A stretch of 33,037 nt of DNA from Xenorhabdus koppenhoeferi (GTDB taxonomy: Bacteria; Pseudomonadota; Gammaproteobacteria; Enterobacterales; Enterobacteriaceae): NCBI RefSeq assembly GCF_900116635.1, contig NZ_FPBJ01000033.1:1-33037 (forward strand), written 5' to 3'. Shown piece by piece: positions 8,572 through 33,037 of the stretch (positions are counted from its first letter, which is position 1; every line of letters starts with the position of its first letter). The notes below the pieces were generated by a model, which did no database searches, had not been told where the DNA came from, and saw nothing but the letters and a program-made list of their open reading frames with translations. The position numbers were made by a program, and so were the translations under genes.

Positions 8572-9321
8572 TTATATACCGTTTATAGTTTTATTTTGTG
8601 CCAGCATATACAAGCGGAACAGGTAAACCAGCAGCAGGGCTGATAGTAGGTTATTCAAGACAGACAGTACCAAATAGGGAGTTTTTGACAATAAAAGCTC
8701 CAGTATCAGTTTGGCTGCAATCCACAACAGTATCGCAGGTATTAGCAGGCGCATATTCTCAAATGCTAACTTCCAACTTGCCTGCATGGCAGCAAAAACA
8801 CTCTTGCCTTTTTCAAATAGAAAAATAGGGGCAAGTGCAAATGCAATAGAGAACAGAACTCCTGGTAATAACATCAAAACGTAGCCAATTTGAACCAGCA
8901 GGGTGCAGATAAACATCAGTAAAAACATTCTTGGCAGAAGTGTGATCGATAATGTGCTGGCATGAATAGCATTAGTTTGCTGCCCATTGGAAACAGCATT
9001 GATGAGTATTAACACACTGGCAGTAAGTAAGGTATTGCCGAATATGTTGGTAAATAAGATCCCAAATGCTGTGCGCAAGAACATGAACTGCTCATCTGGT
9101 GTTAATTGAGCCGCAAAATCTTTGACTCCTGCATTACCGGATTCTTTAAAAGCATTTTGTATCCCGACCAATAAGTTGAGTTGTTCACCATTTGGCATGA
9201 GAAAATGTTCGAGCAGTGTTGTCACCAACGCGGCCAAGACAGAGAGTATGACAATATTCAACAGTTGGTTCTTCAAAAAGTTGATGCTGTCACGATACAG
9301 GGTATTTGCCGTGATGAGCAT
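8572..9321 (-). CDS. yciC: YciC family (UPF0259) inner-membrane protein
   Basis: A 249-aa multi-span membrane protein matching E. coli YciC in order and motifs: ITANTLYRDSINFLKNQ at the start, a Q-L-TPDEQ region, FGNTLLTASVLILI, LLVQIGYVLMLLPGVLFSIAFALAP, FAAMQASWKLAFENMRLLIPAILLW and a LVYLFRLYMLAQNK end. About six hydrophobic segments are visible. The role of the family is unknown. The start at 9321 is supported by AGGAG eight bases upstream; a frame start at 9339 lies before that site. In E. coli ompW follows; here the trp operon does. Confidence 0.93.
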   Translation of the reverse strand: MLITANTLYRDSINFLKNQLLNIVILSVLAALVTTLLEHFLMPNGEQLNLLVGIQNAFKESGNAGVKDFAAQLTPDEQFMFLRTAFGILFTNIFGNTLLTASVLILINAVSNGQQTNAIHASTLSITLLPRMFLLMFICTLLVQIGYVLMLLPGVLFSIAFALAPIFLFEKGKSVFAAMQASWKLAFENMRLLIPAILLWIAAKLILELLLSKTPYLVLSVLNNLLSALLLVYLFRLYMLAQNKTINGI

Positions 9322-9419
9322 GAAAGTGGCTCCTATCAAATAAAACGACGATGATAATGTTCAATTGTACCTTGTTAGGGGGATTATTGGATACCCAAGA
9401 TTTGCCTTCTTGCTGATGT

Positions 9420-9446
9420 CTTGCAACTTGAAATCCATTGTGTATA
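9420..9446 (+). repeat. Dispersed repeat, terminal fragment
   Basis: CTTGCAACTTGAAATCCATT followed by GTGTATA matches the right end of the element at 4251-4377 (GCTGCATCTTGAAATCCATT, GGGTATA). Only the terminal ~27 bases are present; no second end is seen within the yciC-trpA gap. Confidence 0.65.
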
Positions 9447-9548
9447 AGTGGGATGGATAATGAAAAAGATTTCTGCACTCGTATGCCACCAACATTAAAA
9501 GCTGATAAAAAGTAAGTTATGTGTGTGTGTTTGACATAAGAGAGAACC

Positions 9549-9571
9549 AATGGGGTCTAATCAGCCCCATT
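9549..9571. terminator. Hairpin downstream of trpA
   Basis: AATGGGG/CCCCATT arms (7 bp, 9-base loop) lie 61 bases after the trpA stop. The T run (TTTTT) is on the plus-strand side, the wrong side for the operon, so it may be only a barrier or RNA-stabilising hairpin for trp mRNA. Confidence 0.4.
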
Positions 9572-9632
9572 TTTATACTTTTCAGATTTGTTAAAGACAT
9601 CGTAGGATCACACGCAAATTACAGTTATGGGA

Positions 9633-10439
9633 TTATAGTAGAGTCGCGTTTTTCATAGAACGAACAAAGTCCGTTAAATTTTCCAGCATGATATTGGGTT
9701 GATGCAGGTTATCTTCAATAATTTTTACGATGGCAGAACCAGAAATCGCGCCCGTAGCTCCACTATTGAGTGCCACTGTAATCTGTTCAGGTTCTGAAAT
9801 ACCAAAACCTTGTAGAGCAGGTGCGGCATGATTCTCGTTGAGTTTATTGACAAGGTGAGTTAACGGTTGTATTGCTCGATTCTCACTCCCGGTTACGCCT
9901 GCTCTTGACAGTAGATAAGTATATCCGCGCCCAAATGAAGCGATTTCACGCAGTAAATCGTCATCTGCGTTAGGAGGACAAATAAAAATCGGGGCAATTC
10001 CATATTTCATAGCAGCTGAGCGAAATGGAGATGACTCAGATAACGGTACATCAGCCACCAGAACTGAATCAACTCCAGCATTTTTGCAACGGCGGTAAAA
10101 ATCATCAATTCCATTATGGAAAACTAGATTGGCGTAGAGCAACAGGCCAATGGGGATATCGGGATATTTAGCCCGAATTTTTCCCAACAGTTCAAAACAC
10201 AATGTTGATGTAACGTTGGATGACAATGCCCGTAAGTTGGCATTTTGGATAGTAGGGCCATCGGCAAGAGGATCTGAAAACGGAATGCCTAATTCAAGTG
10301 CATCTGCCCCACCAGCGATTAAAGCATCAATAATTTCTAATGACAAATCAGGATTGGGATCACCGAGGGTGACAAAAGGGACAAATGCACCCTGATTTCG
10401 GTTTTGCAGCTTCTTAAATAGTTGTTCATAACGTTCCAT
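9633..10439 (-). CDS. trpA: Tryptophan synthase alpha chain
   Basis: This TIM-barrel subunit cleaves indole-3-glycerol phosphate to indole and glyceraldehyde 3-phosphate and channels indole to TrpB. It is 268 aa, as in E. coli. Catalytic Glu49 ([11 protein letters not shown]) and Asp60 ([10 protein letters not shown]) are in place, with [33 protein letters not shown] and the phosphate-binding [14 protein letters not shown] end (GAISGSAIV). It is the last gene of the operon; its ATG overlaps the end of trpB by 14 bases, so translational coupling is likely. Confidence 0.98.
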
Positions 10440-11628
10440 CAGATTTCCCCCTAGATTTCAAAATATCGTGAACAGTAAAGATGTCTTTGTCGCCGCGACC
10501 AGATAAATTAACAATGAGTAATTGTTCCTTATCTGGATTCTGGTGGATCATTTTCAACGCATAAGCCAGAGCATGGGACGATTCTAATGCCGGAATAATA
10601 CCTTCATTACGTGATAACGCCTGAAAAGCTTCGAGTGCTTCATTATCAGTAATTGAGACATAATCAGCTCTGCCGATACTGTTCAAATAAGCGTGTTGAG
10701 GACCAACGGAAGGAAAATCTAAGCCGGCTGAGATGGAGTAAGATTCTTCAATTTGCCCATCTTTCGTTTGCATAATCGGGGCTTTCATACCGAAATAGAT
10801 GCCCAATTTACCGTGTTTCAATGAAGCGCCGTGCTTTCCGGTTTCGATGCCATGTCCAGCAGGTTCGACCCCGATTAGGCGAACATTATTTTCTGGTATA
10901 AATTCAGCGAACAGGCCAATGGCATTTGAGCCACCACCAACGCAGGCAATCACCGCATCAGGCAGACATCCTTCTTTTTCCAGAATTTGCGCTTTGGCTT
11001 CTTCACCAATCACGCGCTGGAATTCTCGTACTATTGTTGGGTATGGGTGAGGGCCTGCGGCGGTACCCAATAAGTAATGTGCTTTGTCATAACAACCAGA
11101 CCAGTCACGCATCGCTTCATTACAAGCATCCTTCAAGGTTGCTGAACCACTGTGAACAGGGATCACTTCAGCTCCCATCAATTGCATGCGGAAGACATTG
11201 GGAGATTGGCGTTCAATATCTTTTGCTCCCATATAAATACGACATTTTAGTCCCAACAAAGCACAAACCAAGGCAGTCGCTACACCGTGCTGACCCGCCC
11301 CGGTTTCAGCAATGATCTCATGCTTTTCCATTCGCTTTGCCAGCAATGCCTGCCCCAATACTTGATTGGTTTTGTGAGCACCGCCGTGGAGTAAATCTTC
11401 GCGTTTCAGGTACAAACGTGTTTTTGTGCCTTTAGTCAGATTCTGACACAATGTTAAGGCAGTAGGACGCCCTGCATAGTTTTTCAATAACGTCTCGAAT
11501 TCACGCTGAAATTCAGGATCTCTCTGGGCATCGATAAAAGCGTCTTCTAACTGATTAAGTGCGGGGAACAAGCTTTGGGGAACAAATTGTCCGCCAAAAT
11601 CGCCAAAATAAGGATTCAATTTACTCAT
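10426..11628 (-). CDS. trpB: Tryptophan synthase beta chain
   Basis: This PLP enzyme condenses indole with serine to tryptophan in the alpha2-beta2 complex. It is 400 aa from the ATG at 11628 ([18 protein letters not shown]), the family's usual N-terminus. The PLP lysine is in [18 protein letters not shown] (Lys86), the phosphate loop is [10 protein letters not shown], and [10 protein letters not shown] and [10 protein letters not shown] are present. The frame extends upstream into trpCF, but that part is not TrpB-like; an ATG at 11640 would add four residues. It lies 31 bases after trpCF and overlaps trpA by 14 bases, more than the 1-base overlap in E. coli. Confidence 0.98.
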
Positions 11629-16312: not shown

Positions 16313-16368
16313 GTTCATCCCCCCATTACTACCTTCATTCACAAAATTTTTTTATAAAAAACAGTTAT

Positions 16369-16395
16369 AAAAAAACCCGCTTTTTAGGGCGGGTT
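16369..16395 (-). terminator. trp attenuator terminator
   Basis: On the minus strand AACCCGC and GCGGGTT pair across an 8-base loop and run into TTTTTTT, about 20 bases after the leader-peptide stop. Two competing pairings are visible in the leader. GGGCGG (16433-16438) can pair with CCGCCC of the terminator's 5' arm (16387-16392) as an antiterminator. TGGCACT over the Trp codons (16451-16457) can pair with AGTGCCA (16397-16403). Confidence 0.9.
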
Positions 16396-16415
16396 TTGGC
16401 ACTTGTGAATCGTAC

Positions 16416-16508
16416 TTATGTGCGTGAGCCAGCCGCCCGGAATGGGAAATAGTGCCACCAACGATTTACTTGTATAGTTTGCATAAATACGATCAGTTTC
16501 GAGTGCAT
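16416..16508 (-). CDS. trpL: trp operon leader peptide
   Basis: A short reading frame with tandem Trp codons: MHSKLIVFMQTIQVNRWW, then HYFPFRAAGSRT and stop. Ribosome stalling at the two Trp codons when charged tRNA-Trp is scarce would favour the antiterminator. The ATG at 16508 (30 aa) has GAG eight bases upstream, and the ATG at 16511 is also possible. The internal ATG at 16484 would give 22 aa but has no ribosome site. It is longer than the 14-aa E. coli leader, whose Trp-Trp is followed by Arg-Thr-Ser and stop. Confidence 0.85.
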   Translation of the reverse strand: MHSKLIVFMQTIQVNRWWHYFPFRAAGSRT

Positions 16509-16588: not shown

Positions 16589-16620
16589 TATTTTTTTTAA
16601 AATTTTTAGCAAGAGAGCAA

Positions 16621-16697
16621 ATCCCCGGGAGCATAGATAACTATGTGACCGAGCGCAGCCAGCAAAGAGGCAGTTTGAAAGACGAAGTGTATATATA
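16621..16697 (-). repeat. Dispersed repeat, inverted partial copy
   Basis: In reverse orientation it matches the left ~two thirds of the element at 4251-4377: CGTCTTTCAAACTGC, GCTGGCTGCGCTC and CACATAGTTATCTATGC. The right end is missing. It lies about 35 bases upstream of the trp -35 box, between the trp promoter and the exported-protein genes. Confidence 0.75.
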
Positions 16698-16800
16698 TAA
16701 ATGCCTTAGGTTTAATTATTAATATAATAAGATTAATTAAAATTGTTTCTTTTTTATAATAATGGCTGGATTGTAAATCTGTTCTAATGGATATGATGAT

Positions 16801-16828
16801 TTGAAAATTTAATTTTGTTTTTTATGAT
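16801..16828 (+). promoter_or_regulatory. Possible promoter of the exported-protein operon
   Basis: TTGAAA (16801-16806), a 16-base spacer and TATGAT (16823-16828) each match the sigma-70 boxes at five of six positions. It lies 30 bases before the first start codon. The region is so AT-rich that chance matches are likely. Confidence 0.4.
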
Positions 16829-16858
16829 AATATCAATTTTTAACTGAGGGTTATCATT

Positions 16859-18649
16859 ATGATTATAAGTAAAATAAGATTGCTTTTCATGTTATTTTTT
16901 ATTGCTATGGTTTATTTTACTGATGCCAGTGCGATTGAATTAATAAGTAATGATACTATTTCAAATGGGAAATATGATGAGTCAAAAAAAAGAAGTAATT
17001 TATATGCGGATTATAATCTAACCTTTGAAAATGACAGTAAAAATGATGACTTACAAATAAAAATTTCAGATTATTCATGTATGTATAATATTGGAAATAA
17101 TGATATTTATTTAAAGCCAGGAGAAAAACATCAAGAGCACCTTAGAGATAATAATGGTTTTTTTCAAGGATGCTCGGGTGAAAATAAATTTGTTACATGG
17201 AAAGCTACTACCTATAAGGAAGGGAATGCATATAAGTCATGTACTGTTAGGTTGGAAACCTATTTTTCAATTACAGGATGGAATACGATAGTAGAAACAG
17301 ATGATAGTTCATTGTTTAACTCTATTAGTGATACTTGTTATCTTGCAGTAACTGCTATGTGTGATGGAGTGAATTGTGGAAATAAGAGTGTTAGTAGTAA
17401 TACAAGTTATAACCCCAGTAATATTGTTATTACTATTAAAGACGATAACAATTCGGAACGACCACAAATCACATCACCTAAGCCTAATTCAACAGTTGAA
17501 AATAACTTCATTACCTTTTTAGGGAAAGGAGCTATGGAAAATGGCTCTTCTATTATTATTAAAACAAGTTTCAATCCTTATATATATTCTGTTAAGGCTA
17601 TAGAAGGTACAGAAAACTGGGAAGGACAACTCTGGATAGATTGTGGTATCACCGGAACAATTTACATTGATGGCGTGGAAAATTCTGATGTAAGTTTTAA
17701 CGGGCCTTCATGTGGAGCAACAATTACCTCCATTCAGGATGGACAAATTATTCCTGCAGGGAAATATAGTTTATCAGGTATAGTGAATAGTGATACGGCT
17801 GATGATGACAGACGTATGCAGGTGCAAATAACCGGTTATCAAAATGATGGAACAATTTATTCTCCGACAAAGAGTTACACGCCAAATGTTGATACTGGAA
17901 CGGGAAAATGGAATCTGGAGGGTTTAGAGGCCGTTTGCTTTATTCATTATAAGGCTTCTGTATCTAGTAATTTTGAACTACAGAGCACTAATCAATCTCT
18001 TTTACCTCAGATCTCGGGGAAAAAAGAAATCAGCTATAGCACATCACCGTGCCCAATTGAATTAACTGAACCAAAAAATCATGAAGTAGTTTCTTCAACA
18101 ACGGTTAATGAACAGAATATTTTTATTGGTGGTAAAGCCACTGATGGAACCATTATTGTTAATGTGAAATCTGCAGATTATCAAGGTAACTTCGAACAGT
18201 CCTTTCGTGAAAATGTTGTGGATAATAAGTGGAGTGTTGAAGCTGAAAACGTACCTATAGGTATTATGGAAATTCAGGCTAAGAATAGTGAATCGACAGA
18301 ATTTCCTAGTAAAAACGATAATGCTGAAGTGATTATACTGAGTTCTAAAATTTTTTCTGTAGAAGCTAACAACATCAATGTATTCACCAAATTTTCTGGA
18401 ACATCTATGCCAGAAGTTGAGGATGAGGATCTCATGCCAGAAGTCAACATATTGCTTTATGAAAATCAGTTGGAAGAAGCATTTACAAATGAGTATGGTG
18501 ATTGGGTAACAAAGAATAAATATTATGCTAAAAGAGGTGAATATAATTTCACTTTTCAGGAAGAATCAAATAGTGAAATTTACAAAGCGAGAGATAAAAA
18601 AATACTAAAATGCACTGGTAGCGATCGTGGAATGATTTGTGTTAAATAA
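16859..18649 (+). CDS. Exported Ig-like-repeat protein, 596 aa
   Basis: I do not recognise this protein. A Sec signal peptide is clear: IISK, then a hydrophobic LLFMLFFIAMVYF, with likely cleavage after DASA (residue 25). Residues ~26-190 form a Cys-containing domain of unknown type. About four Ig-like beta-sandwich units follow, each opening with a 'I-T-x-P-x-x-x-x-x-V-x-x-x-x-x-x-x-G-x-G' pattern: ITSPKPNSTVENN (~201), ITSIQDGQIIPAG (~288), ELTEPKNHEVVSS (~400) and a last one from ~496 with NEYGDWV. No anchor, autotransporter barrel or RTX repeats are seen, so the final location (periplasm or outside) is open. GAGG stands 10 bases before the ATG. The protease gene follows after 34 bases, so the two are likely co-transcribed. 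The DNA is much richer in A/T than the flanks. Confidence 0.8.
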   Translation: MIISKIRLLFMLFFIAMVYFTDASAIELISNDTISNGKYDESKKRSNLYADYNLTFENDSKNDDLQIKISDYSCMYNIGNNDIYLKPGEKHQEHLRDNNGFFQGCSGENKFVTWKATTYKEGNAYKSCTVRLETYFSITGWNTIVETDDSSLFNSISDTCYLAVTAMCDGVNCGNKSVSSNTSYNPSNIVITIKDDNNSERPQITSPKPNSTVENNFITFLGKGAMENGSSIIIKTSFNPYIYSVKAIEGTENWEGQLWIDCGITGTIYIDGVENSDVSFNGPSCGATITSIQDGQIIPAGKYSLSGIVNSDTADDDRRMQVQITGYQNDGTIYSPTKSYTPNVDTGTGKWNLEGLEAVCFIHYKASVSSNFELQSTNQSLLPQISGKKEISYSTSPCPIELTEPKNHEVVSSTTVNEQNIFIGGKATDGTIIVNVKSADYQGNFEQSFRENVVDNKWSVEAENVPIGIMEIQAKNSESTEFPSKNDNAEVIILSSKIFSVEANNINVFTKFSGTSMPEVEDEDLMPEVNILLYENQLEEAFTNEYGDWVTKNKYYAKRGEYNFTFQEESNSEIYKARDKKILKCTGSDRGMICVK

Positions 18650-18683
18650 AAATAACTATTACTCCATATTCAAGGAGATTACC

Positions 18684-21600
18684 ATGATTTTTTTTAGAAA
18701 GATATTTATATTGTTTCTTTTATTTTATTGCGGCAATTTGTTTTCTGGTACTGAATTGGGATCTCAACCTTTAGAGGCTATTGTAGGGGGAGAAAAAAGT
18801 TGTGATACTGATGATAAATGTAAGCCTTGGGTTGTTAGTATTTTTTATAAGAATAATGATGGTGATGAGAAATTTATGTGCAGTGGATCATTGATATCTG
18901 AAAAATATGTTCTTACCGCTGCACATTGTGAAATGGATGATAAAGAAATAAAGGAAACAAAATTCAAAGAATATCTCATTAAAAATTATAAAAAAGAGCA
19001 AATAGGCACTGCATCACGTTATGGTTTTATAAAACATTATTTTAACGATAACTCTTATAATGATTTTGCTCTTATACAGTTAGAAAAACCAATAATAAAA
19101 GAATGTTGTGGCCATATTCGTCGATTCTTTAATTATGATGAAGCTTATGAAAAGTTGGACAGTAATTATTACCAAGCTTCTGTTTATGGTTATGGACTTA
19201 GGGGTATTAATGAAGATACAGGTGAGCAACAAATAAATGACGGCTCTCAATATAGAGCCGATGTGAAAATTTTAGCCCCTGCTTTAGATGCTAATGGGAA
19301 ACGGGGAATTATTATAGAAGCAAATAAAAATAAAGGGTTCAGTTCAGGTATTACACAACCTGGAGATTCTGGAGGCCCAGTTATTTGGGATGATACCATT
19401 ATTGGGGTGACTTCTGCTGGGCTTCAAATGGCTAAAGGGAAATCAGGAGAAATTAATTATCTTCCTGTCTTAATTTCAGATATAACTAATAAGTATTCAG
19501 ATTCCTCTTTAAATCTTATAAAGTGGTTTTCCAGTACTATGAAACATATTTGGATTTATACTCCAGATTGGAATTCTGAGTTAACAAAACGACAAGAAAA
19601 TATTACTGTTAAAGGGTTTGGAAGAGCGTTAAGTAAAATTAAGCTTACTTACACTATCGACAATATTTTACAAGACTCAGTTGAATGTAAAGATAAAGTC
19701 AGCTCCTTTCTGGAATGGAAGTGCACTATTCCTCGTGAAAAAATTTTTAAAGATTTAGATGAAACAAAAAATTATAAGATAACTATTATTGCCAGTGAAG
19801 TTTCAGACTCTTTATCGAAAAATGAAACATGGACAAAAGATACGATACAAGCAGAAATACCTTCTGTTTCAAAAGAGTTTGGAATTGTTTATCCAACTGA
19901 TGGAGTAACTATTTATACTGAGGATATTAGGTTACGTGGTTATGCTGATCCTCATTCAGAAGTTCAAGTAACATTGCAAGTTGACTCAGATAATTATGTC
20001 TATAAAGAAAAAGAATTATGTCAAGAAAGAGGGGGAAATGGAACAATAAAAACCAATGAATATGGTGAGTGGCTATGTACTATGCAAGTTGATTTAATCA
20101 AGGAGATAAAAGAAGATTTGAATGAAGAAGGTATAAATATTAAAATAACGGCGAATCAGAATACAAAAGATATAAATATTTATGATCAGGTTAATATAAC
20201 TCTCTCGGAAGAAAAAACCGTTACAGAGGTAGCATTATTTCTAAATGAAGAAAACTCAGGTTATAAATATAGAAAATTTTTGAATCTTAACGTTTCTCAT
20301 GATGAAGATGCTAAGATTGTTTGTGTTTTTAAAGAAGGGTATGTGGATTGTCAAGATAAAAGAATCAATGACAAGGGATTTTATTTGATAAATGCTTCAG
20401 GAGAAACTGGAAGTTCTATTTTTAGATTATCAGATATTCAAGCAGCAGCAATACAGAAAGTTGAAGGTGTTGATCCGCTTGATAATAAAAAATTGCTAAA
20501 GGAGAAAAATTTAAAAGGAAGATATTTTAAACCTACATTTACCGATAAATATGATCTTTATAATCCGAAAGAAATTTTATCTGCTGAAATTGAAAGTCAT
20601 AAATTCTCTGGTTATGGTAGTGATAACAGTGGATATACTCTGCCGAATAATGATGTGATCTTACCGTCAGAATATTTTATATGTATGAAGAAAAAAGATA
20701 ATACACCTTTGCCGCCAGAAGATAATTTATGCTCTAAAGAAGGTAATGATATCTATTTAAAAGTTAAACTAAAAAACAATCAATATTTTGATATTATTCC
20801 AACAGAATACACCAAATATCGGGAAAGTCATGACTTTCCAAATTGGGGTATTTCTCTCCCTTCTACACTGGAAGATGGGTTTTATTATATTGAAGTGGCA
20901 GATAGGTATCATCCAGTAGGGTTGGAAAAGTTTAAACGTACCTGGATGGGTTTAACGCCTGACAGAACCTACTTTAGTATAGTAAACCCTGAAGTTCAAT
21001 TCACAGATCCTTCTGTAGGAGAAACAAATACTATAGGCAGTCTAAGTTTTTTGTCAGGGAGTTCTAATATACCAGGAGATGAGGTCGCTATTAAAAGACG
21101 CAGGATTGATCTTTCGTCAGAGCTAAAAGAAAACAAGCAAGACTTTGGTGAGGAAACGTTGATCTGCACAGGTGCTGTGGTCAGCGATAATGGTAACTGG
21201 CAATGTGGCAGGCCAATTATTTTTCCGGTAGGCACTTATGAATTAACCGCTGAGTTAATAAAAGAAGGAAAAGTAGTTGCCACAGATGTTACACAACTTA
21301 CCATTAAAGATAAGAATAATGATGATGAACCCGAAAAGAAAAAATTTGAAATAAATAACCCCAAGAATAATTCAACGGTTGATCCTGATAACCCTATTAC
21401 CTTTTCTGGCATGTTTAATGGTTCTGCCGGAGGAGCAGGAGGTGGTGGTGGATTTGGCGGTTTTCTAAGTAGTTTGATTGGTGGTGTTTGGGGTGCAATT
21501 GAAGGAATTGCTTCTGCATTCAGTGGTGCTCTGGGTTTCTTTTGGGAGTTCACGATTCATCCGGGAGATATTTTCGGTGGCGATACCTATGCGATGACAT

Positions 21601-23792
21601 TACAGGAAACCCAAAATGGCGTGAACGTCGGTGATCCGATTAAATGGACTTTTACTGTCCCGATGCGTATTACCGAGCCTAAACAGGGAACACAGTATAG
21701 ATTAAATGACAAAATTTTCATTAAAGGTCAGGGAAGCCCCGATCAACTGATCTTTGTTACAGCCTCTGAATATATTCTACCGCCAGAAAAAGTAACTTTA
21801 CCGATTTCAAGTGAAGGAATTATTTGCACTGCAACAGTGGATAAAGGAGGAAAGTGGTCTTGTCCTGATAACCCCGCCATGATAGCAACCAACGAAGGGC
21901 AGTTTTTCCTTTATGCGGCTCAGTATCAAAAAACAGGTTCGGCTCAATTGGGTGAATTAGGTGATACTTACGAAAGAACCTCACAAGTTACTCGTAAGTA
22001 CGAGGTCACCAAAACAAAAATAAACATCACTGCCCCTAATCATGGTGCAAAAGTAACAAAACTGCCTTTTACTATCTCAGGCACGGGAGAAAAGGGTGCT
22101 CAGGTATATATCGAAGGCTTTGGTGGTACTGAGGATTGTAATACCACTATTGATGCATCATCAGGTCAATGGTCCTGCGGGTCTTATCAGCCTGAAGAAG
22201 GGAAATACACTATTTCTGCTGAACAATTTATTGATAACCAGCTAAATTCAAGTGTGCACATTTCTTTTGAAGTTCAAACCAAAACTGTCAAATCTGTGGT
22301 GATCACACAACCTCATAATGGCGTGATATATCAGCGTCTTGATAATGTTTTACCGAAGGGAACAGGTGAGCCGGGAACAACAGTTTGCTTAGATAAAAAA
22401 GTTCTTTCTCAGGTTTGTAAGAATGGCGTCACTGTGGATGAACAAGGCAACTGGGAATGGATTGATGGTCTGGATACCGCAGTTAAAGGTGAACAAAAAT
22501 TGGTGGCAACGGCCTTTTTGGATAACGTGCGTCAATCAACAGCAAAGGTTACATTTGATATAGCTCCCGATCCTGGTGAAACCACGTTAACGGTGAAATT
22601 ACCCAAAGAAAATGAAGTGATCAAAACACCTTCATATAACTTTAGTGGCACGATGCCGAGTAATGCCAAAACAGTCACAGTGAAAGCGTTCGGCGGTCAT
22701 GATGATTGTCATGCGAGGCTCAATATGAAGGATTACACATGGACATGCGGGCCTTACAGTTCTGTACCAGGGGATTATGATGTAATGATCGTGGATGATG
22801 TGGGTTCTCAGATTAACAGAAATTTCAAAGTACGCTATGGGAATAATTTGCAAATGAGTGTGCTTAAACCAGAGGAAGGGGAACAAATTGCAACTCCGAC
22901 GTATACAATCAGTGGTAAGGGGCAAGTGGGTGCCCGTGTCACCGTTTCTATTACAGGTAAGCAGATCTGCGGGGTTGATGTCGATGATAATCAAAATTGG
23001 GTTTGTCCGAATCCTATAGAGTCAGTTGCGGGCGTATATAAGCTTTTGGCGCAGCAATGGGTGGATAATGTGCCTTTGGGAAAACCAGTAACACGTAATT
23101 TTGACGTGGTCTATATGTCGGATATGACTATTACTCCTACGGTTGAACCAATTTGTACAGTTCCAAGTGCAAGTGAAATTACAAAAGCATCAATGAAATA
23201 TATCCCTATTATGGAGAGTAATGGCACTATTTCTATTCCAATTACGGGAACAGCGACAAAAGGTGCTTATATTTCCCTGAAAGCGAAATCTGCAAATGGA
23301 AATCATTGGAATTGTGGTCCCGTACAGGCTTCAAAGATGGATGGTAAATGGAGTTGTAGTCTATATAATGCTCAGCCGGGAACATATCAGATAGAAGCTA
23401 CACAATCCCTTATGATCAATGGCCATGTTCTCAAAAATACTAAAGAGAGTAAGGTTGATGCGGCTGTTTTAGACATTTTCTATCCAAGGGAAAATGAAAT
23501 CATTGTTTCATATCGCCGTCCAATATCTATTAAAGTGACGGGGGAAGCACCATCAGGAGTGGAAATTTCATATCACATTGAGCAGCAGACTGATTCAGGT
23601 ATATTCCATAATAATATGGATTCATCTACAGATAATAAACAAGGGACTATAATAGCAGATGAGCATGGAAACTGGGCTTTTCAAGCAAAACTTAATGAAT
23701 TTGGAGGATATAATATCATTGTTTCTGCTCCATTCTGTGGTAAGCATTTTAACTATAAAAGAAATTTTCGTCATCACCCGTATTTGAGATGA
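18684..23792 (+). CDS. Exported chymotrypsin-fold serine protease with about ten Ig-like domains, 1702 aa
   Basis: A signal peptide (hydrophobic 5-20) is followed by a short propeptide and IVGG (33-36), the usual activation site of family S1. The triad is intact: His81 in VLTAAHC, Asp127 in NDFALIQL, Ser229 in GDSGGPV; Cys66-Cys82 matches the conserved His-loop disulfide. The position equal to trypsin Asp189 is Ile223, so trypsin specificity is unlikely. From ~287 to the end come about ten Ig-like units, several with 'C-x-x-x-V-D-x-x-G-x-W-x-C' and 'G-x-Y-x-x-x-A' (starting near 396, 769, 887, 994, 1112, 1203, 1303, 1391, 1483, 1595). The unit at ~887 carries a Gly-rich then hydrophobic insert (913-955). 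The start at 18684 has AAGGAG six bases upstream; an earlier in-frame ATG lacks one. The secretion route beyond Sec is not evident. Substrate unknown. Confidence 0.85.
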   Translation: MIFFRKIFILFLLFYCGNLFSGTELGSQPLEAIVGGEKSCDTDDKCKPWVVSIFYKNNDGDEKFMCSGSLISEKYVLTAAHCEMDDKEIKETKFKEYLIKNYKKEQIGTASRYGFIKHYFNDNSYNDFALIQLEKPIIKECCGHIRRFFNYDEAYEKLDSNYYQASVYGYGLRGINEDTGEQQINDGSQYRADVKILAPALDANGKRGIIIEANKNKGFSSGITQPGDSGGPVIWDDTIIGVTSAGLQMAKGKSGEINYLPVLISDITNKYSDSSLNLIKWFSSTMKHIWIYTPDWNSELTKRQENITVKGFGRALSKIKLTYTIDNILQDSVECKDKVSSFLEWKCTIPREKIFKDLDETKNYKITIIASEVSDSLSKNETWTKDTIQAEIPSVSKEFGIVYPTDGVTIYTEDIRLRGYADPHSEVQVTLQVDSDNYVYKEKELCQERGGNGTIKTNEYGEWLCTMQVDLIKEIKEDLNEEGINIKITANQNTKDINIYDQVNITLSEEKTVTEVALFLNEENSGYKYRKFLNLNVSHDEDAKIVCVFKEGYVDCQDKRINDKGFYLINASGETGSSIFRLSDIQAAAIQKVEGVDPLDNKKLLKEKNLKGRYFKPTFTDKYDLYNPKEILSAEIESHKFSGYGSDNSGYTLPNNDVILPSEYFICMKKKDNTPLPPEDNLCSKEGNDIYLKVKLKNNQYFDIIPTEYTKYRESHDFPNWGISLPSTLEDGFYYIEVADRYHPVGLEKFKRTWMGLTPDRTYFSIVNPEVQFTDPSVGETNTIGSLSFLSGSSNIPGDEVAIKRRRIDLSSELKENKQDFGEETLICTGAVVSDNGNWQCGRPIIFPVGTYELTAELIKEGKVVATDVTQLTIKDKNNDDEPEKKKFEINNPKNNSTVDPDNPITFSGMFNGSAGGAGGGGGFGGFLSSLIGGVWGAIEGIASAFSGALGFFWEFTIHPGDIFGGDTYAMTLQETQNGVNVGDPIKWTFTVPMRITEPKQGTQYRLNDKIFIKGQGSPDQLIFVTASEYILPPEKVTLPISSEGIICTATVDKGGKWSCPDNPAMIATNEGQFFLYAAQYQKTGSAQLGELGDTYERTSQVTRKYEVTKTKINITAPNHGAKVTKLPFTISGTGEKGAQVYIEGFGGTEDCNTTIDASSGQWSCGSYQPEEGKYTISAEQFIDNQLNSSVHISFEVQTKTVKSVVITQPHNGVIYQRLDNVLPKGTGEPGTTVCLDKKVLSQVCKNGVTVDEQGNWEWIDGLDTAVKGEQKLVATAFLDNVRQSTAKVTFDIAPDPGETTLTVKLPKENEVIKTPSYNFSGTMPSNAKTVTVKAFGGHDDCHARLNMKDYTWTCGPYSSVPGDYDVMIVDDVGSQINRNFKVRYGNNLQMSVLKPEEGEQIATPTYTISGKGQVGARVTVSITGKQICGVDVDDNQNWVCPNPIESVAGVYKLLAQQWVDNVPLGKPVTRNFDVVYMSDMTITPTVEPICTVPSASEITKASMKYIPIMESNGTISIPITGTATKGAYISLKAKSANGNHWNCGPVQASKMDGKWSCSLYNAQPGTYQIEATQSLMINGHVLKNTKESKVDAAVLDIFYPRENEIIVSYRRPISIKVTGEAPSGVEISYHIEQQTDSGIFHNNMDSSTDNKQGTIIADEHGNWAFQAKLNEFGGYNIIVSAPFCGKHFNYKRNFRHHPYLR

Positions 23793-23836
23793 GTATTTTA
23801 TTTATAAATAAAATAATTTAATATTTCATTGGTGTT

Positions 23837-23868
23837 TAATATGCGGCTGGCATGCCAGCCGCATATTA
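23837..23868 (+). terminator. 32-bp perfect palindrome after the protease gene
   Basis: A gap-free palindrome centred on GGCATGCC with CGGCTGG/CCAGCCG arms and AT-rich ends lies 44 bases after the stop codon and is followed by TTTAT. It is probably the operon terminator. Full symmetry means it could also work on the other strand. Confidence 0.65.
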
Positions 23869-23952
23869 TTTATAAAGAATAGAAGCAAGCAATACTATTC
23901 TCCATCAGTTTAGTTCACTGTGTTATCATTGATACTTTGTGCTTGATATCAC

Positions 23953-23980
23953 CTGATAGATAGTATTCTGATAGATAGTA
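23953..23980. repeat. Tandem duplication upstream of rnm
   Basis: CTGATAGATAGTA occurs twice, separated by TT (15-bp period), 37 bases before the rnm start. It lies where the rnm promoter or leader should be and might affect spacing of that signal. Confidence 0.7.
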
Positions 23981-24017
23981 CTTTTATTTCCCGTCCTATA
24001 AAAACAGGTACAGAACA

Positions 24018-24890
24018 ATGACTGAAGCTGCCAGTGAAATGACAAAACGTTATGACTTACATAGCCATACGACTGCTTCAGACGGGGTTTTATCGCCTGA
24101 GCAGCTCGTGGACAGAGCCATCACCATAGGTATTCATGTATTGGCAATTACTGATCATGATACGACGGAAGGTATACAGCCAGCTTTAAATCATATCCAG
24201 CAAAATAATCTGCCGCTGACATTAGTTTCTGGCGCTGAAATTTCAACGTTATGGGAGAATTTTGAAATCCATATTGTTGGTTTAAATATCGATATCAATT
24301 CTATTACCTTAAGGGAACTCTTGGCCAAGCAGGTTGATTTAAGAAATCAGCGTGGCATTGAAATTGGACTTCGTCTAGCTAAAGCTGGCATTCCTGATGC
24401 TTGGGAAGGTGCATCCCGATTGGCTAATAGTGGGCAAGTTACGCGCGGGCATTTTGCCCGTTATTTGATTGAAGCCGGCGTTGAACCGACAATCAAAAAA
24501 GTGTTTAAGAAATATTTGGTAAAGGGGAAAATCGGCTATGTTCCTCCGCAATGGTGTACAATTGAGCAGGCCATTGAAACCATTCACCAGGCAGGAGGAC
24601 AAGCTGTCATTGCCCATCCAGGCAGGTATGATTTGTCGACGAAATGGCTGAAGCGGTTAATAGTTTGGTTTAAACAACATGGTGGTGATGCAATGGAAGT
24701 TGCACAGTGCCAGCAAGCACCTAATGAAAGGCAACAACTTGGTCAACTGGCAAGAGAATATGGGCTGAAAGTATCATTGGGATCGGATTTTCACCAACCC
24801 TGTTCATGGATAGAACTTGGGCGCAATTTGTGGTTACCTGGTGATGTTGTACCGATATGGCACGACTGGTCACGGATTGGGGCTGCATAG
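24018..24890 (+). CDS. rnm: RNase AM (YciV/TrpH), PHP-domain 5'-3' exoribonuclease
   Basis: A PHP-family metal-dependent phosphoesterase that trims the 5' ends of 5S, 16S and 23S rRNA in E. coli and also degrades short oligonucleotides. It is 290 aa against 293. Metal ligands are visible in order: YDLHSHTTASDG (His15, His17, Asp22), AITDHDT (Asp46, His47), GAEIST, EIHIVGLN, VTRGHFARYL, VIAHPGRY and GSDFHQPCSW. The start at 24018 is the first in frame; an ATG seven codons later, next to KRYDLHSH, is an alternative. In E. coli rnm starts just upstream of trpL. Here 7 kb of exported-protein genes separates them. yciO follows after 16 bases. Confidence 0.96.
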   Translation: MTEAASEMTKRYDLHSHTTASDGVLSPEQLVDRAITIGIHVLAITDHDTTEGIQPALNHIQQNNLPLTLVSGAEISTLWENFEIHIVGLNIDINSITLRELLAKQVDLRNQRGIEIGLRLAKAGIPDAWEGASRLANSGQVTRGHFARYLIEAGVEPTIKKVFKKYLVKGKIGYVPPQWCTIEQAIETIHQAGGQAVIAHPGRYDLSTKWLKRLIVWFKQHGGDAMEVAQCQQAPNERQQLGQLAREYGLKVSLGSDFHQPCSWIELGRNLWLPGDVVPIWHDWSRIGAA

Positions 24891-32522: not shown

Positions 32523-33037
32523 TCAGACATAAGTCACATGCTCTGTAAACAGCTCATCAATAGAGCATCTTTCTCGTCTTCTTGTTGTTTTTGTTTCAGC
32601 CCATTTGTTTTCGATAGGATTTAAATCTGGGCTGTAAGGCGGAAGCCATTCTAACTGGCATCCGTGATCGGTTATCGCTTTTCGCGTGTCACCGCGTTTA
32701 TGGAAAGGGGCATTATCCATCACAATCACTGTCCCCTTAGGGAGCTTCGGCAACAAATCTTGTGTCAGCCAGGCATGAAACACATTCGCATTAATGGTTC
32801 CGGCAAACAAACTTAAGGTCACAAAGGTATTTTTAATGATAGCACCAATGGCATTAATGCGGCCTTTGTGCTGCCAGTCATGTAAACCAAAACAGCGGGA
32901 CCCTTTTAACGAATAGCCATGCGTACGTGGCATGGACTGCTCAAAGCCGCTTTCATCCAGATAAACAATCTGTTTGCCCGCCTGCTCATGATGGCGGATA
33001 CGCTCGCCAAATACCTGACGAGCGTGTTCGTCAGCGG
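32523..33037 (-). mobile_element. IS630-family transposase, 5' end beyond the window
   Basis: The frame is open to the right edge, so the N-terminal part is outside the window. The visible 171 codons hold the whole DDE core: YLDESGFEQS (first Asp), GTVIVMDNAPFHKRG (second Asp) and PPYSPDLNPIENKWAETK (Glu), the pattern of IS630/Tc1-type integrases. An inner ATG at 32933 is not the true start, since the first Asp motif lies before it. Target sites of this family are TA. The left inverted repeat should lie between the topA terminator (32476) and the stop at 32523, but I cannot fix it without the other end. In E. coli cysB follows topA. Confidence 0.9.

Follow-up and report, generated by a model that had tools for sequence, protein, structure and literature searches.

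The window analysed here is a whole contig of 33,037 nucleotides from Xenorhabdus koppenhoeferi (NZ_FPBJ01000033.1), in which two genes for exported proteins lie between trpE and the gene that we take to be rnm (Table 1). An earlier note on this DNA had described two adjacent reading frames with Sec signal peptides and Ig-like repeats, an intact S1 triad in the second protein only, and AT-rich base composition, and all of this is borne out. The two frames are separated by 34 bases (last base of gene 1 at 18649, ATG of gene 2 from 18684), and an AAGGAG upstream of this ATG makes an in-frame GTG at 18639 less likely as the gene 2 start. Both N-termini were read by eye as signal peptides, with helices at residues 2-22 of gene 1 and 2-20 of gene 2 in the structure models. 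The GC content is 0.33 in gene 1 and 0.31 over residues 1-765 of gene 2, against 0.41 in the gene 2 core and 0.43-0.44 in the flanking gene blocks. Pfam Trypsin matches gene 2 alone, and Ig-like repeats are recognised in gene 2 by Big_13 and Big_6 and in gene 1 by the structure model only. Chance is excluded as the origin of these frames by their conservation, the rows of alignments A1 and A2 being 38-88% identical to the window's proteins.

The extent of the module was derived by blastn of its flanks against 16 trpE-rnm sites free of the pair, contributed by the 15 genomes that lack it and by genome G013. In most of these sites homology on the left stops near 16596-16616 and resumes on the right near 23919. 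The trpL and rnm genes presumably adjoin in E. coli, which fits with the empty trpE-rnm sites in half of our genus sample. No third module gene was seen between trpE and rnm, and promoter and terminator scans of the locus gave no more matches than in shuffled sequence. A repeat that we take to be ERIC-like occupies 16617-16700, between the trp promoter region and gene 1; an exact degenerate pattern for it, which is a weak test, matched only the window's own loci among 209. A reading frame at 32523-32933 on the minus strand resembles, by eye, a DDE-type IS transposase.

Table 1. Features of the locus in window coordinates
Feature	Coordinates	Strand	Basis and details
trp operon leader RF00513, left neighbour of module	16367..16466	-	Rfam 46.1 bits, gathering 41
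Module extent relative to empty trpE-rnm sites	~16600..23918	.	blastn of flanks, 16 pair-free sites; ends approximate
Gene 1 (P1), exported, N-domain and four Ig-like domains, 596 aa	16859..18649	+	
Gene 1 signal sequence, residues 1-25	16859..16933	+	by eye; helix 2-22 in model
Gene 1 N-domain, residues 49-195, six conserved cysteines (74, 105, 128, 160, 168, 173)	17003..17443	+	alignments A2, A3; mostly strands in model
Gene 1, four Ig/FnIII-like domains, residues 199-596	17453..18646	+	
Gene 2 (P2), exported S1 protease with Ig-like stack, 1702 aa	18684..23792	+	
Gene 2 signal sequence, residues 1-21, then short stretch to IVGG at residue 33	18684..18746	+	by eye
Gene 2 S1 protease domain, residues 33-290; H81 at 18924, D127 at 19062, S229 at 19368	18780..19553	+	
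Gene 2 variable beta-rich stretch after protease, residues 291-765	19554..20978	+	35-51% mean pairwise identity, 13 sequences; low-confidence model
Gene 2 conserved core, residues 766-1390	20979..22853	+	67-80% mean pairwise identity, 13 sequences
Gene 2 Gly-rich hydrophobic insert inside one Ig-like domain, residues 916-956	21429..21551	+	13/13 full-length sequences
Gene 2 C-terminal Ig-like domains, residues 1391-1702, variable at end	22854..23789	+	Big_13; identity 66, 47, 33%
rnm, right neighbour of module	24018..24890	+	matched in 30/30 genus genomes, two pieces in G027

Architecture of the two proteins

The protease domain of gene 2 matches Pfam Trypsin over residues 34-254 (E 7.9e-23, 81.9 bits against a gathering threshold of 20.6). 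Its triad residues, which were assigned from motifs, are invariant in all 15 rows of an alignment that omits the broken copies in genomes G004 and G013, and GDSGGP is kept in the same 15 rows. The residue preceding I-x-GG is A, T, N or D and never basic. Position 189 is I or V in 15/15 rows, as counted back from GDSGGP by motif alignment rather than from a solved structure, which makes a trypsin-like pocket unlikely; trypsin specificity was rejected on this count. Taken together, the signal sequence, the approximately eleven residues that follow it, the I-x-GG motif, the intact triad and the non-basic S1 pocket make gene 2 look like an S1 zymogen, which would be subject to activation.

The rest of the protein is a stack of Ig-like domains of uneven conservation. 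Strands follow residue 300 in a low-confidence structure model, and Big_13 and Big_6 score above their cut-offs in the C-terminal half (Big_13 at residues 1402-1457 with 37.5 bits against a gathering threshold of 27). The repeat style of this half is that of bacterial Ig-like repeat proteins (Big_13, Big_6, Ca_tandemer), from which gene 2 differs by its protease domain, by having no anchor visible by eye, and by a Ca_tandemer (NF033510) score of 41.5 bits, below the curated cut-off of 50. Among 13 full-length sequences the mean pairwise identity is 35-57% in residues 34-765, 67-80% in residues 766-1390 and 66% in residues 1391-1480, falling then to 47% and 33%.

Gene 2 is a mosaic, and its GC border is also the mosaic border (0.31 in residues 1-765 and 0.41 in the core). 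Between genomes G015 and G001 the identity rises from 37-61% in residues 34-765 to 88-94% in residues 861-1390, and that of fourfold sites from 62-66% to 80-81%, with 85% in rnm. The reverse pattern is found between G015 and G007, where fourfold sites are 73-85% identical in residues 34-515 and 49% in the core, with 63% in rnm. Each of these fourfold comparisons rests on 24 to 124 sites, conditional on equal first two bases. As such jumps are not explainable by selection on the protein alone, the best reading is that the protease half has been exchanged between lineages by recombination. The C-terminal end seems to have been exchanged too, being 41% and 58% identical at 22 and 43 fourfold sites between G001 and G029.

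Within the conserved core lies an insert of 41 residues, of which 15 are Gly and 2 are charged. In 12 of the 13 sequences the most hydrophobic 19-mer of the mature protein lies here, G007 having a higher stretch elsewhere, and the insert is unstructured in the model (block pLDDT 21-27). With a Kyte-Doolittle 19-mer value of 1.2-1.7 it falls short of what is usual in transmembrane helices; the minimum of the Wimley-White interface energy (-4.6 to -6.7 kcal per 19 residues) is located in or beside it. Its likeness to a fusion peptide, or to the Gly-rich part of GlyGly-CTERM, is one of composition only, the insert being internal and having no basic tail. No hydrophobic anchor or GlyGly-CTERM-like tail was seen by eye at the C-termini of the 13 full-length sequences.

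Gene 1 and its relatives carry a six-cysteine N-domain on four to eight Ig-like domains, and the model of gene 1 shows a run of Ig/FnIII-like domains over residues 199-590. Nothing in Pfam matches gene 1 above cut-off. The N-domain itself has no Pfam match, apart from one nearest-genus copy with a sub-cut-off match to an Ig-like family, and a profile search of PDB sequences was likewise empty. No solved fold for residues 49-195 is among the Foldseek and VIA matches listed, the whole-P1 searches being filled by the Ig domains at 199-589. We regard this first, cysteine-rich domain of gene 1 as a family of its own.

The nearest known architecture is that of VesB of Vibrio cholerae, where an S1 zymogen is likewise followed by an Ig-like domain; in Foldseek the VesB structure 4lk4 stands at rank 34 for gene 2 (E 1.1e-7, 408 alignment columns, rmsd 15.7 A). 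VesB has one Ig-fold and a C-terminal GlyGly-CTERM and is exported by the type II secretion system, T2SS (PMC12369372). Gene 2 has the S1 domain followed by an Ig-fold and lacks the C-terminal Gly/Ser motif, hydrophobic segment and basic tail of this type; it also differs from VesB in its length of 1702 aa, in the Gly-rich hydrophobic insert within the chain and in having a partner gene. No T2SS secretin scored above cut-off in the genus sample. This secretin marker, TIGR02517, the only one used, matched below cut-off in 30/30 genus genomes and above it in none, and in 6/14 controls, 2 of them above cut-off. A T2SS is entered for X. bovienii (XB) in a review table (PMC6023292). A second comparison is the umbrella toxin of Streptomyces. 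UmbA of S. coelicolor lacks the full triad and carries lectins, with UmbC and its ALF repeats as a third part (PMC11062931). In contrast, the triad of gene 2 is intact, no third module gene stands between trpE and rnm, and the Pfam scan gave no lectin domain match in gene 2.

Distribution and history of the pair

The same 15 of the 30 genus genomes hold both gene-2 matches and gene-1 matches that extend beyond the N-domain, the other 15 have neither, and gene 1 precedes gene 2 at every locus where both were read. The module is thus as coherent as the earlier note had proposed; a larger gene-1 tally of 24/30 genomes includes matches to the N-domain only, and G006 has one further S1-only match, at C68. 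In the family sample each gene was found in 1/149 genomes, both times in the window's own. The gene-2 profile (residues 1-1147) matched 51/295 order genomes, of which all but one cover only parts of profile positions 1-265 with open frames of 209-718 aa.

The pair stands at trpE-rnm in 13 of the 15 carriers, with both flanks on one contig in 10 and broken by contig ends in three (G016, G028, G025). G004 has remnants only at this site. In G013 the pair lies beside trpE fragments in a rearranged trp region (L071, G013:C1:93000-112500), and another trpE is next to rnm (L104). The 15 genomes without the pair have an empty site, with about 0.34-0.9 kb from trpE to rnm. One of these, G018, retains sequence of both module edges: one stretch matches window 16805-16880, which includes the gene 1 start, at 85% over 78 bases, and another matches 23796-24046, downstream of gene 2, at 73% over 254 bases. 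Its site looks like the scar of a deletion.

On a tree of 29 genomes, from which G027 was omitted with its broken rnm and in which G004 and G013 were scored as carriers, presence of the pair requires 6 changes, and branches with good support make 4 of these unavoidable; shuffled patterns need 10 on average, and 3/500 were as low. The earlier note had the module inserted between the trp promoter and rnm; given these changes and the two module edges kept in G018, a single recent insertion is less likely, and simpler histories exist. Joint losses from an old presence and exchange through the conserved flanks both fit, and gains by flanking recombination are compatible with the data as well. Phage cargo was rejected, with no phage-record match for gene 2 or for one stand-alone N-domain protein, as was plasmid cargo, with no plasmid match for gene 1 or for the one stand-alone N-domain protein searched; the single plasmid match of gene 2 was to an Ig-like protein, with 26% of the query aligned at 24.9% identity. 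An anti-phage defence role was set aside, with no PADLOC match.

The trpE-rnm slot is stable and its flanks are conserved, which would allow two unrelated genes to travel jointly by flanking recombination. Gene 2 would then be an ordinary digestive exoprotease and gene 1 an unrelated exported Ig protein, sharing only a promoter and a favourable genomic slot. Against this stand the copies at other places, in G025 (C105, C156), G013 (C157) and G004 (C468), where both genes are present, in some cases interrupted or truncated at a contig end. Pieces of gene 2 without gene 1 (G004 C517, G013 C272, G025 C136) all lie at contig ends, which prevents a judgement on a solitary state.

Pairwise distances, taken over the first 420 residues of gene 1 and the first 850 of gene 2, correlate with r 0.72 (0/5000 permutations, n=14). 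However, the rnm control gives 0.76 with gene 1 and 0.60 with gene 2, so that much of this correlation is shared descent, as the view of mere neighbours would have it. Given rnm, the partial correlation between the two genes is 0.48, with 4/5000 permutations as high (n=13), and their trees differ in places. Co-evolution as a proof of contact is weakened by this control. On balance we hold it rather improbable that the two genes are mere neighbours.

The N-domain beyond the pair

The N-domain profile A3 matches 27/30 genus genomes, as well as 3/345 order genomes and 2/398 phylum genomes, all of the same genus. In the nearest genus (TopA 89%), which we take to be Photorhabdus, a search with the full gene-1 profile A2 found the N-domain alone in 8/12 genomes and the full gene 1 in none. 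Confinement of the N-domain to Xenorhabdus is therefore wrong, and the order and phylum counts under-sampled the nearest genus.

We read 46 wide loci, a selection of the A3 match places, which hold 51 N-domain reading frames, and scanned them for the S1 and M10 protease classes. Seventeen frames are gene 1 or its remnants, 16 of them with gene 2 or a remnant within 0.6 kb and one ending at a contig edge; as these loci were chosen for the pair, they make no independent test of association. Of the other 34, 13 either are fused to a protease-like frame or have one within 4 kb. The remaining 21 comprise one that adjoins a gene like the pertussis toxin subunit S1 and 20 whose locus shows neither an S1 nor an M10 signature.

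The protease-like neighbours are of several kinds. Five of the 34 are fused to an M10-like part with the motif HE[MF]GHALGLGHP and have the N-domain halves in swapped order; Pfam Matrixin was below cut-off in the three that were scanned. Such M10-like frames with a C-terminal swapped-half N-domain were observed at L147, L148, L149, L150 and L151, and in the window's own genome at G000:C64:1622-3256. In the nearest genus, 6/6 wide loci have the N-domain 0.35-3.4 kb downstream, on the same strand, of a 505-aa frame that is S1-like by its motifs and by sub-cut-off Pfam matches (Trypsin_2 at 24.7 and 27.3 against 27.6 in the two scanned), and in two other loci this frame is seen cut by the locus edge. 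By blastp it has no meaningful similarity to gene 2 (best E 0.078). In two further loci, with starts as we chose them, an N-domain frame begins 18 and 25 bases after an S1-like frame of 767 or 780 aa with GDSGGP, the first matching Pfam Trypsin at 6.1e-10 and the second assigned by eye; both N-domain frames have sub-cut-off Ig-like matches and one has RCC1 repeats. At these loci (L153, 3715-8922, which has the RCC1 repeats, and L152, 1511-5663) the S1-like frame stands first, in reversed order relative to the module.

The pertussis-S1-like gene (PF02917, E 4e-14) is at L147 (G002:C159), where an N-domain protein of up to 266 aa at 9145-9942 directly precedes it at 9888-10679; an M10-like frame is 5.4 kb away. 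The 20 frames without a protease signature comprise 15 stand-alone genes and 5 that are related to the fused form but lack the metal motif, and so the N-domain is not tied to proteases. Stand-alone genes occur in one to three copies near a glycosidase and a PTS-like gene at L158, L159 and L163, and an oligopeptidase-A-like gene lies near the copies at L158 and L163 (all by eye). The earlier note had held that its view would suffer if homologues of each gene were usually found alone; the full genes are found together, whereas many N-domain proteins stand alone.

What the pair may do

The explanation that we prefer, and to which we tentatively assign close to an even chance, is a two-part exported protease in which gene 2 is the enzyme and gene 1 a binding or targeting subunit. 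Gene 2 would present an S1 zymogen-like head on a long Ig-like stalk, and the Gly-rich hydrophobic element in its conserved core could touch or enter a membrane. Gene 1 would be a co-made partner, with a cysteine-rich N-domain carried by four to eight Ig-like domains as its stalk, and would either guide the protease to a substrate or retain it at a surface; the two proteins may bind each other, and their target may lie in an animal host. That the N-domain turns up with different proteases speaks for gene 1 serving the enzyme, and its presence beside an ADP-ribosylating-type gene and on RCC1 repeats favours binding or targeting rather than inhibition. A scaffold with changing specificity would be expected to show such exchange of its protease half and C-terminus around a kept core.

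This explanation is supported by the co-occurrence of the genes, the partial correlation, the kept triad, the N-domains near proteases, the exchanged ends and the insert in 13/13 sequences. It is weakened by the 20/34 N-domains without S1 or M10, by the sub-cut-off status of the 505-aa frames and by the moderate hydropathy of the insert; also counted against it are the T2SS marker, above cut-off in none of 30 genomes, and the large share of common descent in the distance correlation. The partner role that the earlier note had given to gene 1 is accordingly upheld in part, by the 13 of 34 frames in or near protease-like genes, and undercut by the 20 with none in the locus.

A dedicated inhibitor, chaperone or immunity protein is unlikely but is the alternative that survives best. 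Gene 1 would then silence gene 2 in the periplasm, for example by a flexible N-terminal stretch in the S1 cleft. Gene 1 is first in order and probably co-made, its residues 15-46, including the stretch after the signal sequence, have very low model confidence, and the N-domain is in or near other protease-like frames; a precedent is UmbB with the inactive trypsin fold of UmbA (PMC11062931). However, conservation within gene 1 is lowest in residues 1-48, the signal and N-terminal stretch (mean pairwise identity 33% over 10 sequences), the N-domain also occurs beside the pertussis-S1-like gene, on an RCC1-repeat protein and in the 15 stand-alone frames without S1/M10 signature, and an inhibitor has no need for four to eight Ig domains.

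Least probable is a surface adhesin pair, in which the Ig stacks would be the working part and the S1 domain would serve stalk processing or binding instead of digestion: the stack matches bacterial repeats and the T2SS secretin marker identified no secretion route in the 30 genomes, but the triad and oxyanion motif, needless for a binding fold, are invariant in 15/15 rows, and the C-termini have no hydrophobic anchor or GlyGly-CTERM-like tail by eye.

Returning to the two-part protease, its individual pieces are familiar (VesB-like S1 plus Ig), and to our knowledge the combination of an S1 domain, an Ig stack and a partner gene is not known from elsewhere. PrtA, presumably a metalloprotease, shares export and genus with gene 2 and differs from it in class. 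PrtA/XrtA are given as exported proteases of Xenorhabdus in PMC3814329. The pair was not found in the accessible parts of the literature on Xenorhabdus secreted proteases, Ig-like domains, the secretome and pertussis toxin, drawn mostly from outside the subscription journals. A bolder version, which we also consider unlikely, would have both the S1 head and the C-terminal end swappable on an Ig core that contacts host membranes through a fusion-peptide-like Gly-rich element, and the partner N-domain as a general accessory module for several proteases and at least one pertussis-S1-like gene; nematode-symbiotic bacteria would then have a two-part exoprotease of a new kind.

A protease of the gene-2 build is unusual in the family, as only the window's own genome matched among 149. 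The A3 profile provides a handle for accessory proteins without a Pfam name in Xenorhabdus and its nearest genus. Finally, exchange of the catalytic ends in an enzyme-partner pair that is itself stable suggests that substrate specificity changes.
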